Below are positions 4,575-41,816 of a DNA stretch of 64,000 nucleotides, piece by piece. The first letter of the stretch is position 1. Each line of letters opens with the position of its first letter. A model generated the notes under the pieces. The model was given only the letters and a program-made list of their open reading frames with translations. It was not told where the DNA came from and did not search any database. Source of the stretch: a virus; IMG/VR virus record IMGVR_UViG_3300050343_000277, positions 1 through 64,000 of that record; one strand, given 5' to 3'. Both the position numbers and the translations under genes were made by a program.

Positions 4575-4591
4575 TCGAATCAAACTACAAA

Positions 4592-4776
4592 ACCACGCTT
4601 ACTACACTACTATCTATAAACTGCAAATTAAATAGTCTATAGATAGGGTGTATGTATTAAAAAAGAGATATATAGAGAGACGAGTGTGGTTAACGTGGTA
4701 TAAGCGCCAAGTCAAGCCCAAACGCCAGTAATACCAGTGGGTTTCAAAACCACACAAAGAACGTGGTATTAATAAG
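4592..4776. promoter_or_regulatory. Repeat-rich control region A, inverted copy of region B at 35.2 kb
   Basis: This non-coding stretch starts with a 34-nt block (4592-4625) that matches the reverse complement of 35229-35262 with one mismatch. TCTATAGA (4636-4643) follows at the same 10-nt spacing as in the other copy. GAGTGTGGTTAA (4682-4693) matches a third block with one change. Extra CGTGGTAT copies occur near 4695 and 4761. It lies upstream of the ribbon-helix-helix genes, so operator, recombination or replication-origin roles are possible. Confidence 0.7.
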
Positions 4777-33574: not shown

Positions 33575-33748
33575 TCACGGCTTTTCTACCATTATAAGTG
33601 GTTCTTTAGGAGCAGGTTCTGCAAAGAAGCAAGTAATCCAGTCTGCATCCCTTTCCAATAATTCAGCAGACAAAGCCTCTTCAAGCATATTGATTGCAGC
33701 AATCTGATGTGGCTCTTTGTAATGCTTAAAGATCTGAGTTAAGTGCAT
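33575..33748 (-). CDS. Small hypothetical protein
   Basis: 57 aa, starting MHLTQIFKHYKEPHQIAAIN, overlapping the upstream gene stop by 1 nt. Acidic helix with Trp and Phe near the middle. No recognised domain. Confidence 0.5.
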   Translation of the reverse strand: MHLTQIFKHYKEPHQIAAINMLEEALSAELLERDADWITCFFAEPAPKEPLIMVEKP

Positions 33749-33975
33749 CAAACGCCAATAGCTGACTGAAGATCTTTAACTGCTTTTGCAACAGGTGCAA
33801 CAATCATCATTGTCTTCTTTGGTGCATCGGCTTCTGACTGCTCAATAACACTCGCCACATTTTCAATTTTATTCTCTAAAGCGGTGAGCTTAGCTTCCAC
33901 TTCCTTAGATTTATAATCAGTAAACTTCATGCTCACAAGAAGTGCCAAAATGGGCCCAATGATTACGTATTCCAT
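33748..33975 (-). CDS. Small membrane-anchored coiled-coil protein
   Basis: 75 aa: an N-terminal hydrophobic segment MEYVIIGPILALLVSM, then a charged helix (KEVEAKLTALENKIENV). The design resembles the 8819 product. Function unknown. Confidence 0.5.
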   Translation of the reverse strand: MEYVIIGPILALLVSMKFTDYKSKEVEAKLTALENKIENVASVIEQSEADAPKKTMMIVAPVAKAVKDLQSAIGV

Positions 33976-34009: not shown

Positions 34010-34336
34010 TCACATCATAGTGAGACCGTCATCATCGATATCGTCAATCTCCCAACCCTCATCCATAATGTCAGAAGGGAGCATATCGTCCTGCATTTTC
34101 AATAGTTCAATGAAAGTATCTTCAGAAATAATTTCAGGCATTCCTTGCTGAAGTTCTTGTACTTTAAATAAAATACCGTTACCCATTAGCAATTCCTGTA
34201 CTCCATTCTTTTGTTCCATACGAGACTTGAGCAACCGTACAGCGGTTTTCTCCAGCGCACCTCGGCTCATACGAGTTACTTCATATCGCGCTCGCTGTAA
34301 GGCAAACCTCTGTTCGATTGTCAATTCGTTCGTCAT
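34010..34336 (-). CDS. NblA-like protein
   Basis: From the ATG at 34336 (MTNELTIEQRFALQRARYEV) the product is 108 aa. The first 55 residues follow the NblA pattern LT-EQ-F-L ... V--MSR--L ... L--RM--KN---ELL. NblA is the adaptor that brings phycobilisomes to Clp protease. The acidic C-terminal extension (from about residue 60, ending DDIDDDGLTMM) is not part of short NblA. Homologues are known in freshwater and some marine cyanophages. It overlaps the HNH gene by 56 nt. Other small helical proteins could mimic this pattern. Confidence 0.5.
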   Translation of the reverse strand: MTNELTIEQRFALQRARYEVTRMSRGALEKTAVRLLKSRMEQKNGVQELLMGNGILFKVQELQQGMPEIISEDTFIELLKMQDDMLPSDIMDEGWEIDDIDDDGLTMM

Positions 34337-34676
34337 AATCATCTAATTCAATACGCTTGTTAGCAATCCATTCTTCAATAAGCTCTTGTGCAACAGCATT
34401 ATAAAAAGACTGTTGTTGGTACCAGGATAGCCATAATTCACTTCCTTTGGAGTGATTGCATTGTCTGCAACATGGCACTAAATTTGACCTTAAATTACTT
34501 CCACCTTTGCAGCGTGGTTTCAAATGATCAAGAGTGTCAGCTCTTCTTATTCGGCAATAAGCACATAATCCTCCAAAACTGTAACGAATGTCTTCTCTAA
34601 ACTGTCGCTTTGCGGAGCCTTTACTAAGGCACTGGAGATTGAACATAAGTTCCCCCCAATCTTCTGCGTATCCCAT
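34281..34676 (-). CDS. HNH endonuclease
   Basis: The 131-aa product has the zinc-type HNH core CAYCRIRRADTLDHLKPR followed by GGSNLRSNLVPCCRQCNHSK, with two CxxC pairs, the catalytic DH, the central Asn and the final HSK. It starts MGYAEDWGELMFNLQCLSKG. Free-standing HNH genes are common in phages and may be homing-like or aid packaging. It lies between the recoded small membrane gene and the NblA-like gene. Confidence 0.8.
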   Translation of the reverse strand: MGYAEDWGELMFNLQCLSKGSAKRQFREDIRYSFGGLCAYCRIRRADTLDHLKPRCKGGSNLRSNLVPCCRQCNHSKGSELWLSWYQQQSFYNAVAQELIEEWIANKRIELDDYDERIDNRTEVCLTASAI

Positions 34677-34727: not shown

Positions 34728-35122
34728 TTAAAGAGTATTATTTTTAGGCTTGAAGGTGAGTCGCATCTCTCCACCTAATGGGGTTTCACCATTTATTTTT
34801 TCTGAAAATTCTACCGTTGGTTCTTCTTCAGGCTGCATGGCAAGCCACTCTTCTTCAGCAGCATCAAGCTTGTGAGGAAGAGTTGCGTAAAACTTACGTG
34901 CCTGTATTAAACGCCTTAAGCGTTCAGCATTACCTAGAGTGTCAAACGTAAATATCCACTGACCATCGTCAGGGATGTTTAGATCTTTTTTCCTGGCTTA
35001 AGTGATTTCAATGTATGAAATACAAGCTGAATGATTGAATTGTCTTTCAGGGGACTTAGAGCAATGATTTCACTAGCTGCCGCCAAGATGATCCAAAATA
35101 CTGCTGATTCAAGAATAGCCAT
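34728..35122 (-). CDS. Small membrane protein with probable -1 frameshift extension
   Basis: Frame 0 starts at 35122 (MAILESAVFWIILAAASEI) and stops at 34979-34981 after 47 aa: one hydrophobic span then a basic tail SLKPGKKI. The -1 frame continues from 34985 to the stop at 34728-34730 with 85 more residues (DLNIPDDGQWIFTFDTLGNA at its start) and has no usable start codon. The join, at heptamer AAAAAAG (34985-34991), would give 131 aa. The short form resembles tiny membrane proteins of cyanophages. Both products may be made. A simple one-base change is the alternative. Confidence 0.65.
34954..34991 (-). other. -1 ribosomal frameshift signal: slippery site, spacer, hairpin
   Basis: Reading the minus strand: A AAA AAG (34991-34985) in the zero frame, an 8-nt spacer holding the zero-frame TAA, then ATCCCTGAC pairing with GTCAG(T)GGAT around GATG, which gives 9 bp with one bulge (34976-34954). 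Heptamer, spacing and hairpin follow the standard bacterial -1 layout. Confidence 0.65.
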
Positions 35123-35153: not shown

Positions 35154-35262
35154 CCACGCAAACTGCACTTAACCACGCTCATCCCTATAAACTTATCCCC
35201 TTATTCCCTCTCTATAGAGATTTATATATGCAGTTTATAGAGAGTAGTGTAGTAAGCGTGGT
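35154..35262. promoter_or_regulatory. Repeat-rich control region B upstream of the excisionase-like gene
   Basis: The stretch holds two AACCACGC (35153-, 35171-) and one GCGTGGT (35256-35262), a TCTATAGA palindrome (35211-35218) and the 34-nt block 35229-35262. Read on the minus strand it matches region A (4592-4693) in block order. It lies between the small membrane gene (minus) and the excisionase-like gene (plus), where integrase/excisionase or operator sites would be expected. Confidence 0.7.
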
Positions 35263-35332
35263 ATTGAATTATCTTGTTGCCAGCGACTCCAAAACAGCTA
35301 TAGTCTTAGTGGGCAAATGATTGCATATATAA

Positions 35333-35557
35333 ATGACTAAAGGATTATTGCGACCAGCAGAGGTCTGTCAGCTACTTGCTGTTTCAAGTAAGACTCTGCA
35401 GCGGTGGCGTCACTCAGGTCGATTGATGAAAGGAGTGCATTACCAGCAGTTTGGTAGTCACACCATTAGGTACGACAAAACTTGGATGCTCGATTTTGCT
35501 GAGTCTGGTGGTCGAGGCAGTCACAAGCTGAAGATTGCCGAGTATCTCAGACACTAA
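35333..35557 (+). CDS. Excisionase/AlpA-like winged HTH protein
   Basis: The 74-aa product begins LLRPAEVCQLLAVSSKTLQR WRHSG, a MerR/AlpA-type helix-turn-helix (xLLxVSxxTLxRWxxxG) with a wing ending FGSHTIRYDKTWM and a basic tail HKLKIAEYLRH. Such small proteins act as excisionases or repressors. The gene faces the integrase tail to tail with an 11-nt overlap and follows repeat region B, which may be its binding site. Confidence 0.75.
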   Translation: MTKGLLRPAEVCQLLAVSSKTLQRWRHSGRLMKGVHYQQFGSHTIRYDKTWMLDFAESGGRGSHKLKIAEYLRH

Positions 35558-37130
35558 TTGAGCTAGCGAGCTGGGCCATCAACTGAGCCTTTTCAGCAAC
35601 ACTCATGGAATTAATCATGGTGCTCAGGTCGGGCTTGCCTTCTACCTTATCCATAAGAGGAAAATTGACTACACCTAAGTACTTGCTTCTAGTAGTGCTT
35701 TCTGTATCGCCAATCCAAGTAGCTACCTGCTTGCAGCTGTACTGACCATGATGAACCATTAATGAGACATAGGTGTGCCGAAGGTTATAGGGCCTGCGGT
35801 AACGAACACCTGAATAAGCACATGCCTGCATAAAGTACCTTCTGAAGTTATGCCAATCAAACGGAAGCCTAAAGTCATCTTTTGCCTTTGGTCCCTGAAA
35901 TACTAAGTTTTTACGCCAGTCTCTATTTGTCATGCATTCCAGAACTGGTGGTAATGCTGCCTTTATTGCTTTGGCGAACAGGTCTTCAAACTCAGGCACA
36001 TAGGAATTCAGCAAAGGCTGATGCTCACATCCATTCTTGACGCATTTGAAACGCTGTTCAGGTTCAATATGTAATCTATTCCTTCTATCAACTCCAAACT
36101 CGAAAAATACAGGCTGACCATCTAGAACAAACTTCTGTGCAGCAGGTACATGAGTGCCAATTTGATGCCCTTTCCACAGCCCCATAACGTGGCTCCACCT
36201 CAACGCCAGTACTTCGTTTGGGCGACTGCCTGTAGATAGCAACAACGCAAATAACGGGAAGTACGGCTTCAAGTGCTCATGACGTAAGAATGCTTTGGTT
36301 AGCGCTGTGCATTCTTCTTGTGTAAATGGCTGAGGGCGTGAGTTCTCGTCTTTCAAACGATTATCAGCAATTATCGAATCAACGCGCTTACGTTCATTGT
36401 TAATAGGGTTGCCTCGGCCTTCGCTGTCAACAGCGCCCCAGTACTGCCCTCGCCTGACACCAGTTGACTTAGGAAACTTGGCACCTCTTGATAGAGCGGC
36501 TGATAGAAGAGCGAATGCTCCTCTTAAGGTTGTATAAGCACGGCCTGCCTTTATCCATTCAAAGTGCATCTGGTCAGCGATGTCTTCATCTAGATCTTCT
36601 GCATTGATATGGCCAAAGAATTCTCCATTCTTACTTTCCATTCTTAGCAACGTGTAAGCGTCTGCTCCATATTTATCTCTTTGATTATCAGATCCTGTCT
36701 CCTCTGACATATACCAACGCAAGCAATGTCCTAAAGTTCCGTGAGGATAATTGCGATTAATGTGCTTACGCTTCTCATGTCTAACGTTAAGTTCTCCCAT
36801 CCAGTAGCCATTCTGCATTTCTTCCAAAACCCCTTGGAAGAGCAAAAACTTCTCTGGAAATTTTTGCAAGTATTTTAGTGCATCTTCTTTGCTTGTAATC
36901 TCTATCGGGCATTGAAGATCAAGACTACGAGCAACTACTGGTCGTGCTCGTGAGTGATCTCTTGCTCGGAGACGGAAGCTTCTTGAGTTGCTTTCAATCT
37001 CTAACGCCAAAGAGCGTGACTTGCCGTGACGGGTAGGTAGATCGACTTTATAAATTTGTCCTTTTGCAGGAGCCATAAGCTGAGACCACTTGGGAGCTAT
37101 TTCCTCCACCGGATGTACTTGACGTGGCAT
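35547..37130 (-). CDS. int: Tyrosine recombinase (phage integrase)
   Basis: The 527-aa product has a C-terminal catalytic domain with STGSRPNEVLALRW near residue 305 (first Arg), YNLRHTYVSLM near 458 (HxxR-equivalent RH) and ATWIGDTESTTRSKYLGVV near 476 (the W/H position and nucleophile Tyr in SKY). The long N-terminus (about 270 residues) holds arm-binding and core-binding regions. It starts just before a repeat array and tRNA-Ala, the classic setting for tRNA-directed integration, so the phage can probably form lysogens or derives from a temperate line. Confidence 0.92.
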   Translation of the reverse strand: MPRQVHPVEEIAPKWSQLMAPAKGQIYKVDLPTRHGKSRSLALEIESNSRSFRLRARDHSRARPVVARSLDLQCPIEITSKEDALKYLQKFPEKFLLFQGVLEEMQNGYWMGELNVRHEKRKHINRNYPHGTLGHCLRWYMSEETGSDNQRDKYGADAYTLLRMESKNGEFFGHINAEDLDEDIADQMHFEWIKAGRAYTTLRGAFALLSAALSRGAKFPKSTGVRRGQYWGAVDSEGRGNPINNERKRVDSIIADNRLKDENSRPQPFTQEECTALTKAFLRHEHLKPYFPLFALLLSTGSRPNEVLALRWSHVMGLWKGHQIGTHVPAAQKFVLDGQPVFFEFGVDRRNRLHIEPEQRFKCVKNGCEHQPLLNSYVPEFEDLFAKAIKAALPPVLECMTNRDWRKNLVFQGPKAKDDFRLPFDWHNFRRYFMQACAYSGVRYRRPYNLRHTYVSLMVHHGQYSCKQVATWIGDTESTTRSKYLGVVNFPLMDKVEGKPDLSTMINSMSVAEKAQLMAQLASSISV

Positions 37131-37418: not shown

Positions 37419-37491
37419 GGGGCTTTAGCTCAGCTGGTAGAGCACTTGCATGGCATGCAAGGGGTCAGCGGTTCGAATCCGCTAAGCTCCA
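37419..37491 (+). tRNA. tRNA-Ala (anticodon GGC)
   Basis: 73-nt cloverleaf: acceptor GGGGCTT/AAGCTCC including the Ala identity pair G3-T70, D arm GCTC/GAGC with AGCTGGTA loop, anticodon stem CTTGC/GCAAG with loop ATGGCAT (anticodon GGC), T stem AGCGG/CCGCT with loop TTCGAAT, discriminator A. CCA is not encoded. A complete tRNA next to the integrase may be an attachment site, a working tRNA or both. The stretch 37492-37633 holds no gene that I can see. Confidence 0.95.
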
Positions 37492-40647: not shown

Positions 40648-41816
40648 ATGGCTAATCTATCGTTTAAAGAGTTTGAAAACTTTTTCAAGTATTACAACTC
40701 AGAAGCTCAACAGAAGGAAGGTATTCGGATACTGTATGGGCAAATGAGGGATATATTGAAAGATAATGAACATGCTTGGGTTAAGACTTACCGTGACAAG
40801 CTTGAGGTTACAAGCAGCACCATATTAAGTGTGCCATTTCAAAGTCAAAACGATAATTCTTCTGGAACGGGATTTAGAGAATGCTTCTCAAGCAGCATGG
40901 CCATGGTCGCCATGTACTACGGAAAGATTGATAACGATGACGATTACAACGCGATCCGTAAGCAATATGGTGATACAACAGATGCACAAGCACAAGTTAA
41001 AACTTTGAAGTCACTTGGTCTTGACGCAGAGTTTAAATTTGATGGTACAACTCAAACATTGAAAGATGCTATTGATTCAGGAAGACCTGTAGCAGTGGGC
41101 TGGTTGTTTGAAGGACCAGTCAGTTCGCCTTCAGGTGGAGGCCACTATTCAGTAATTATTGGATACGACGATGAGAATGAAACATGGATTGTAAATGATC
41201 CAAATGGAGAAGCCTCACTTCGCAGTGGAGGATACACAGCTAATTTAGATGGTGCAGGTATAAAGTACAGCTACAAAAACTTTAACCCACGTTGGACTGT
41301 TGAAGGAGAAGGCACCGGTTGGTATATGGATGTAAGTGATCCGAGCGCAAAAAAGTAAAGGCGGGAGCTCATGTTTCTGAGCCTTCCCGCACATCACAAG
41401 CAGGAATTGACCTTATTAAGTCCTTTGAGGGCTTAGAGCTTGAAGCGTACTATTGCGCTAGCTCGATACTCTCGATTGGATATGGCCACACTCAGCATGT
41501 GTTTGAGGGTCAAGTCATCACCAAAGATGATGCGGAGGAGCTATTACGTAAAGACCTTATGTGGTTCGAAGAGCAGGTTGTCAAAATTATTCTGCCTGTC
41601 CTTACTCAACATGAGTTTGATGCAATTGTCAGCTTTGCATTTAACGTAGGTAGTAGCGCACTAGAAAACAGCACTTTCACTCGACGCATAAATGACGGCG
41701 AGAACAAAGCACTGTGCTTTCAACAGGAATTCCCTAAATGGGTGAATGGGCCGAACGGGCCTCTCCCCGGATTAATCCGAAGGAGAGCCGCTGAAATTAA
41801 GCTATCTGCTAATTAG
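40648..41816 (+). CDS. Two-part endolysin: C39-like peptidase joined to GH24 lysozyme by -1 frameshift
   Basis: Frame 0 (40648-41358, 236 aa) has a helical start, then a papain-like C39 domain: VPFQSQ, FRECFSSSMAMV (Cys), GGHYSVIIGYDD (His), IVNDPNGE (Asn/Asp). It stops in TAA right after AKK. In the -1 frame a GH24 lysozyme follows, with GIDLIKSFEGLELEAYYC (catalytic Glu), LSIGYGHT and AIVSFAFNVG, ending at 41816. That lysozyme frame, open from 41340, has no ATG, GTG or TTG before its catalytic core. The fused product would be 389 aa and cut both peptide and glycan bonds. Frame 0 alone yields a peptidase-only form. Confidence 0.8.
41349..41390 (+). other. -1 ribosomal frameshift signal: slippery site, spacer, hairpin
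   Basis: A AAA AAG (41349-41355) is in phase with codons GCA AAA AAG TAA. A 5-nt spacer TAAAG (41356-41360) follows. Then GCGGGA pairs with TCCCGC, and inside it GCTCA pairs with TGAGC around TGTTTC: 6+5 bp with a 2-nt bulge (41361-41390). The zero-frame stop is the first spacer codon. Confidence 0.75.

Follow-up and report, generated by a model that had tools for sequence, protein, structure and literature searches.

A conserved −1 frameshift predicted in a lysis-module membrane protein gene of Synechococcus phages

A small membrane protein gene in the window (the whole 64,000-nucleotide stretch of DNA analysed, part of a 67,104-base IMG/VR virus record) is almost certainly decoded via programmed −1 ribosomal frameshifting, judging by comparison with its relatives. 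Many Synechococcus phages, both siphovirus-like and podovirus-like, have the predicted frameshift as a conserved feature of their lysis module; annotation has missed it. Recoding, selection on the long product and membership of the gene in the lysis module are each supported by the sequence data. Among the readings that we tested, programmed −1 frameshifting is the only one that explains the heptamer, the exchanges between its versions, the use of GGA at the slip site and the evolution of the extension.

Layout of the frameshift gene

The original prediction placed a short open reading frame, a slippery heptamer, a stop codon and an overlapping −1 frame at this locus, and all of these coordinates were borne out when the sequence was re-read (Table 1). 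The claim that the zero frame stops after 47 codons, with 85 further residues encoded in the −1 frame lacking an early start, was likewise verified: the −1 frame is open from 34997, the residues across the slip read GKK/DLN, and the earliest ATG, GTG or TTG of the extension is its 50th codon.

Table 1. Features of the window relevant to the two candidate slip sites and their surroundings.
Feature	Coordinates	Strand	Details
Free-standing relative of the cyanophage lysozyme N-terminal domain, 58 aa	33575–33751	−	phrog_28234 endolysin, E 0.018
Small N-terminal TM protein, coiled-coil-like tail	33748–33975	−	weak PHROG holin match, E 0.006
NblA-like protein, phycobilisome-degradation type	34010–34342	−	PF04485, E 9.8e-7; same operon as frameshift gene
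−1 extension	34728–34985	−	85 codons to 34731, stop 34730–34728
Hairpin, possible stimulator	34954–34976	−	9 pairs, one bulge, 3′ of slip site
Zero-frame stop TAA	34979–34981	−	separated from heptamer by one codon (ATC)
Zero-frame ORF, short membrane protein	34979–35122	−	47 codons, ATG at 35122, TAA at 34981–34979
Slippery heptamer A_AAA_AAG	34985–34991	−	X_XXY_YYZ phase; context GGA AAA AAG ATC TAA
Endolysin zero frame, N-domain and C39 peptidase	40648–41358	+	PF13529, E 8.3e-16; ends AAAAAAG TAA
Second A_AAA_AAG (window order)	41349–41355	+	stop TAA directly adjacent
Endolysin −1 frame, GH24 phage lysozyme	41355–41816	+	PF00959, E 1.5e-37; no early start codon

Conservation of the slip site

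With the joined protein as query, 126 related stretches were retrieved from IMG/VR, and a second search starting from S-EIVl yielded 87; 80 were kept from each, and named phages were added separately. The membrane half is present in 165 loci, including the window and the named records (88 plus 77 of the 79 new loci); L109 and L161, which lack the N-half, fall outside this set. Removal of four entries whose contigs or records were already represented, and of L148, an incomplete entry in which AAAAAAG is visible by inspection, left 160 loci. A canonical slippery heptamer occupies the same place in 158 of these 160 loci (window included), as AAAAAAG in 131, GGGAAAG in 19, CCCAAAG in seven and AAAAAAC in one. 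L034 has the non-canonical GAAAAAG, yet retains the extension, and L090 (Oinezvirus S37C6) has neither site nor extension. The short stop follows the heptamer after 3 nt, i.e., one codon, in 156 of the 160 loci and immediately (0 nt) in the other four; the extension spans at least 45 codons in 157, with L046 and L105 reaching the contig end first.

As a control for bias, relatives were also sought with the membrane half alone (alignment A3), so that loci were not selected via the C-half. Among the best 80 of at least 386 relatives found in this way, which overlap the earlier sets, 74 carry the site (one incomplete) and six do not, namely, L182–L186, all of the Oinezvirus type, and L217. Comparison with homologues, proposed along with the original prediction, thus revealed genes ending at the short stop with no coding sequence downstream in only one of the 160 loci (L090) and in six of the 80 from the membrane-half search. 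When the TM gene directly upstream was scanned as a control, none of 112 loci had a slippery site at its end; in the same scan, the frameshift gene had both site and extension in 159 of 165 loci, the site only in two and neither in two, and could not be placed in two. None of the 249 ORFs with the N-terminal motif in the loci scanned for this purpose joins the two halves in a single frame.

The frameshift layout is present in seven named isolates (S-CBS1, S-CBS3, KBS-S-2A, S-EIVl, S-B28, 7B11-B and WH11-B) and in independent metagenomes, at a DNA identity of 89% for the record of L003 and L180 and of 75% for that of L169. An indel in the A run, a concern raised with the original prediction, is excluded by the presence of the same run in independent contigs and isolates. 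Among the isolate records opened, none annotates a joined CDS, the extension being missing or split off. In S-CBS1 (gp23; L083, 18675–18887) and S-CBS3 (gp22; L085, 10186–10353), separate genes with internal starts are annotated which, by sequence, are the frameshift extension. If confirmed, the frameshift would explain orphan genes in each of the seven isolates. Two gene-bearing phage contigs, L169 and L170, have been binned into MAGs named bacterium TMED88 and Rhodobacteraceae, a doubtful binning given that the named relatives infect Synechococcus.

Coding selection and codon use

Pairwise dN/dS was computed on 122 distinct DNA sequences. Read in the −1 frame, the extension gives a median of 0.20 (491 pairs), compared to 1.35 and 1.50 in the other two frames; the median for the membrane half in its own frame is 0.24 (1,127 pairs). 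Because the pairs are not independent, these medians are a description rather than a test. Where the slip site encodes glycine, the codon is almost always GGA (103 of 104, near-identical loci included), whereas elsewhere in the same genes GGA accounts for 39 of 588 glycine codons (116 distinct sequences). The zero-frame residues at the site vary (Lys-Lys, Gly-Lys or Pro-Lys), but slipperiness stays. According to the accessible text of PMC4066793, C_CCA_AAG, G_GGA_AAG and A_AAA_AAG are the most efficient motifs in Escherichia coli when accompanied by stimulators; the heptamers of the family are exactly these three, plus a single A_AAA_AAC.

Stimulatory elements

The hairpin invoked in the original prediction fared less evenly. 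Its 9-bp stem and 8-nt distance from the heptamer are present in the window, where the region folds with −13.3 kcal/mol over 45 nt (z = −2.66; 4 of 200 shuffles equally good), but it is poorly conserved across the family. As a family-wide stimulator it was rejected: 33% of 103 distinct downstream 55-mers have z < −1, and the median is −0.46. Projected onto nine near relatives (eight distinct), the structure of the window has 74% of cells paired, a value reached in 12 of 500 shuffles, and the covariation score is matched in five of 500; two pairs differ at both positions, a number also attained in 209 of 500 shuffles. Over 89 diverse members, the mean z ranges from −0.36 to −1.53 at 0–80 nt downstream and from −0.01 to −0.35 at 90–30 nt upstream; the downstream folding excess is only modest, because position +90 folds too (−0.94). 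A Shine–Dalgarno-like element upstream of the slip site occurs in six of the 89 members, against a background of 11%. A clear family-wide stimulator is absent among the structures and Shine–Dalgarno-like elements examined. In the part of PMC4066793 consulted, the best heptamers without a stimulator are given as reaching only about 0.3% in E. coli.

Genomic neighbourhood

In S-CBS1 and S-CBS3, the frameshift gene lies between a gene for a small TM and coiled-coil protein and that for lysozyme. In 145 of 164 loci, a tblastn search with cyanophage lysozymes yielded a same-strand match no more than 2.5 kb away; some of these matches may rest on a shared N-terminal domain. Where 1.2 kb or more of downstream sequence is available (149 loci), a lysozyme-type gene follows in 134, typically about 226 nt past the short stop; no lysozyme match was found nearby in the other 15 (L005–L008, L010, L086–L088, L090, L092–L096 and L170). 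The small TM gene of the S-CBS1 type is directly upstream in 112 of 164 loci. Assignment of the frameshift gene to the lysis module is supported by this neighbourhood. The lysozymes of S-CBS1 and S-CBS3 contain catalytic domains, and a TM segment is not evident at the N-terminus of either sequence, so that a holin is to be expected.

In the window, the frameshift gene is followed by an HNH gene (34281–34676), the NblA-like gene, the small TM protein gene and the free-standing endolysin N-domain (Table 1). The latter has no catalytic domain; the N-terminus of the S-CBS1 lysozyme also matches phrog_28234. The NblA-like gene and the small TM gene each reappear downstream in 12 loci.

The predicted short and long proteins

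The short form consists of a TM helix at approximately residues 7–23, followed by an amphipathic helix (hydropathy; AF2 pLDDT 75). The extension is modelled mainly as one long helix with a flexible tail ending in GETPLGGEMRL (AF2 pLDDT 68), and the C-terminal tail is conserved. Mean column identity is 37% in the extension (alignment A1) versus 60% in the membrane half (A2). Positive charges follow the TM helix, suggesting that the C-terminal part is cytoplasmic.

The membrane half matches phrog_22542 in all 39 aligned members, and the fused protein has no match in Pfam. The short form is a small TM protein in a lysis cassette, as expected of a holin, but none of the 39 members matches a known holin family (Pfam to E 0.5, PHROGs to E 0.01). 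The podoviruses P60, S-SRP01 and S-CBP1 encode a homologous membrane half, also in a lysis cassette, as a protein of 65–76 aa (phrog_15106); unlike the frameshift gene, these are single-frame genes whose products end in a short charged tail, with neither extension nor slip site. Together with Oinezvirus, they exemplify phages that have the membrane half only.

The C-terminal motif of the family recurs in a single-frame protein (phrog_3316) of the cyanomyoviruses ACG-2014f, S-CAM7, DSL-LC02 and B23, attached to a different N-terminal segment that is hydrophobic or amphipathic. The preceding gene encodes a phage lysozyme (PF18013) in ACG-2014f, S-CAM7 and DSL-LC02 but not in B23. This link is real but thin, because phrog_3316 matches only six of 43 C-terminal parts of the frameshift family (best E 1e-6); by charge, moreover, the cyanomyovirus proteins look N-in/C-out, unlike the topology suggested for the frameshift protein.

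Proposed mechanism and alternatives

That a −1 frameshift yields both a short and a long membrane protein, as originally predicted, is supported by the conservation of the heptamer, the use of GGA and selection on the extension. Most ribosomes would terminate after 47 codons and release a small membrane protein of the lysis module, and some would slip by one base on A_AAA_AAG, adding an 85-residue helical domain with its conserved C-terminal tail. The short form would be the holin-like effector, opening a way through the inner membrane by which the cytoplasmic endolysin can pass. The long form, in a ratio fixed by the slip site, would enter the same assemblies and either set their timing or couple them to the endolysin. 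We regard this scheme as a whole, in which a programmed frameshift yields a short holin-like protein plus smaller amounts of a long form as lysis modulator, as moderately probable, with either timing or coupling as the role of the long form; granted the recoding, a holin-type reading is somewhat favoured. We infer holin-type activity from the position, size and membrane segment of the gene product; that the long form has a modulating role, and that its C-terminal part is cytoplasmic, as the charges past the TM helix suggest, are likewise proposals. The combination of short holin and long modulator is preferred because some phages have the membrane half only, this half is the more strongly conserved, and the order of the cassette is PBSX-like. 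Counting against a holin role are the lack of a known holin-family match for the short form and the other small TM gene of the cassette, a competing holin candidate; further points against are the lack of a clear family-wide stimulator, the unlike topology predicted for the myovirus relatives and the 15 of 149 loci with no lysozyme match.

The roles of the two forms might be reversed, with the long form as the effector, serving as an adaptor that is tethered to the membrane and gathers or positions the endolysin there, and the short form as a by-product or spacer subunit. Purifying selection on the extension, comparable to that on the membrane half, and the conserved tail at its end are in line with such an adaptor, as are the cyanomyovirus single-frame TM proteins with the same tail, preceded by a lysozyme gene in three of the four cases checked. 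Nevertheless, some phages retain only the membrane half, the extension is the less conserved part (37% versus 60%) and the long form is usually the minority product in frameshifting, so that we consider this arrangement rather unlikely. A role as inner-membrane spanin, or as some other envelope-lysis protein whose helical C-terminal part is periplasmic, is improbable for the long form. Although the TM helix, long helix and flexible tail of the AF2 models and the location in a lysis cassette would suit such a protein, the positive charges past the TM helix point to a cytoplasmic C-terminal part, and a simple lipobox pattern, beyond the reach of which are unimolecular spanins and unusual lipoboxes, detected no partner ORF in the window; the one match in S-CBS1 is in another place, within the structural region and antisense to it.

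Explanations that dispense with ribosomal frameshifting have to account for the same data. Were the two parts separate genes, with the downstream one started independently or by re-initiation after the short stop, the internal starts annotated in the GenBank records of S-CBS1 and S-CBS3 would be natural, and 15 of 122 extensions do have a possible start within their first 11 codons. However, ATG, GTG and TTG are all absent from the first 21 codons of 78 of the 122 extensions; that of the window is among these and has its earliest at codon 50. With the conserved heptamer, the GGA bias and the fixed distance to the stop also unaccounted for, two genes are very unlikely. Slippage of RNA polymerase on the A run, for which the six consecutive A of most members might speak, has a slightly smaller chance still: in 26 of 160 loci the heptamer is GGGAAAG or CCCAAAG, with three A only, in an identical layout, and such A-poor heptamers argue against transcriptional slippage. 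A sequencing or assembly error, or a decayed gene, has a negligible probability; we found nothing in its favour, and the same layout recurs in independent metagenomes and seven named isolates under purifying selection. Chance and sequencing error, originally called less likely, are both very unlikely given the heptamer in 158 of 160 loci, the dN/dS of 0.20 and the independent contigs.

Relation to known systems

The main known examples of conserved −1 frameshifting in dsDNA phages are tail chaperones. The gene described above resembles the tail-assembly chaperone gene of lambda (G/GT), the dsDNA phage frameshift treated in the accessible part of PMC3556154, in its conserved −1 frameshift, its short and extended proteins and its heptamer class. 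Unlike G/GT, which precedes the tape measure gene, the cyanophage gene encodes a lysis-module membrane protein and stands beside lysozyme. Identity with a tail-assembly chaperone was rejected, as the gene adjoins lysozyme, encodes a TM helix and does not precede a tape measure gene. The frameshift site of dnaX is A_AAA_AAG, with a stop soon after the slip. Both the heptamer type and the nearby stop recall the sites of dnaX and the IS3 family (motif data in the accessible text of PMC4066793). The protein is a different one, however, and a conserved stimulator was not found in the cyanophage family.

Lambda S105 and S107, holin and antiholin, are made from one gene via dual start. The scheme proposed for the cyanophages would be similar in that one small lysis-cassette membrane protein occurs in two forms at a set ratio, but these differ C-terminally by recoding and not N-terminally by choice of start, and the holin activity is putative. 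S-CBS1 gp21 weakly matches phrog_937 hemolysin (E 0.0024), which we take to be of the XhlA type. The order of a small TM/coiled-coil gene, a second small membrane gene and endolysin is like that of xhlA-xhlB-xlyA in PBSX (PMC6834076, in part); in contrast to PBSX, no sequence similarity between the frameshift gene and XhlB was found, and the consulted part of PMC6834076 mentions no frameshift.

In the accessible parts of the open-licence literature, we came across no description of frameshifting in the lysis genes of cyanophages. The words ‘frameshift’ and ‘holin’ are absent from the main texts of PMC6157547 and PMC3751600; ‘holin’, ‘cyanophage’ and ‘endolysin’ are absent from the available portion of PMC5009743, in which lysis is mentioned in references, including one on MS2 lysis; and phage frameshifting in the excerpt of PMC3711429 is limited to the tail chaperone. 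As far as this partly accessible literature goes, phage genes with a conserved −1 frameshift are known, and one in the gene for a lysis-module membrane protein was not encountered. The slip site probably has a part in determining the manner or the timing of lysis. If confirmed, recoding would join the means by which phages set lysis, in phages of abundant aquatic primary producers.

A second candidate slip site in the endolysin gene

The original prediction also counted a second site with an identical heptamer, which we located in the endolysin gene (Table 1); it is the only other AAAAAAG in the window at which long frames are joined in this manner. The frames on its two sides encode a C39 peptidase and a GH24 lysozyme, the latter with no start codon ahead of the domain, so that both slip sites of the phage lie in lysis genes, a point absent from the original prediction. 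The site and its adjacent TAA are kept in L179 (nearly identical) and in L180 (87% protein identity; on the contig of L003), and no further relatives with the site were found; with two close relatives only, confidence in its conservation is much lower than for the first site. In ACG-2014f, the C39 part and a lysozyme-like sequence, the latter judged by eye, are contained in one 405-aa frame. The second site would represent a two-domain endolysin joined by a frameshift, a gene that annotation would label truncated.

It is possible, if doubtful, that the same heptamer sets both the membrane effector (short holin, long antiholin) and the domains of the endolysin (C39 with or without GH24). If so, slipping on lysine codons would time lysis, and a holin/antiholin pair would be made via recoding, with neither two starts nor two genes.

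Elsewhere in the window, an inverted 61-bp repeat with 89% identity (35206–35266 and 4588–4648) is AT-rich and looks non-coding in both copies; it is perhaps a regulatory or replication element. An integrase gene (35547–37130), with an excisionase-like HTH gene at 35333–35557, adjoins a tRNA-Ala (GGC) gene (37419–37491), and this region is a possible attachment site.
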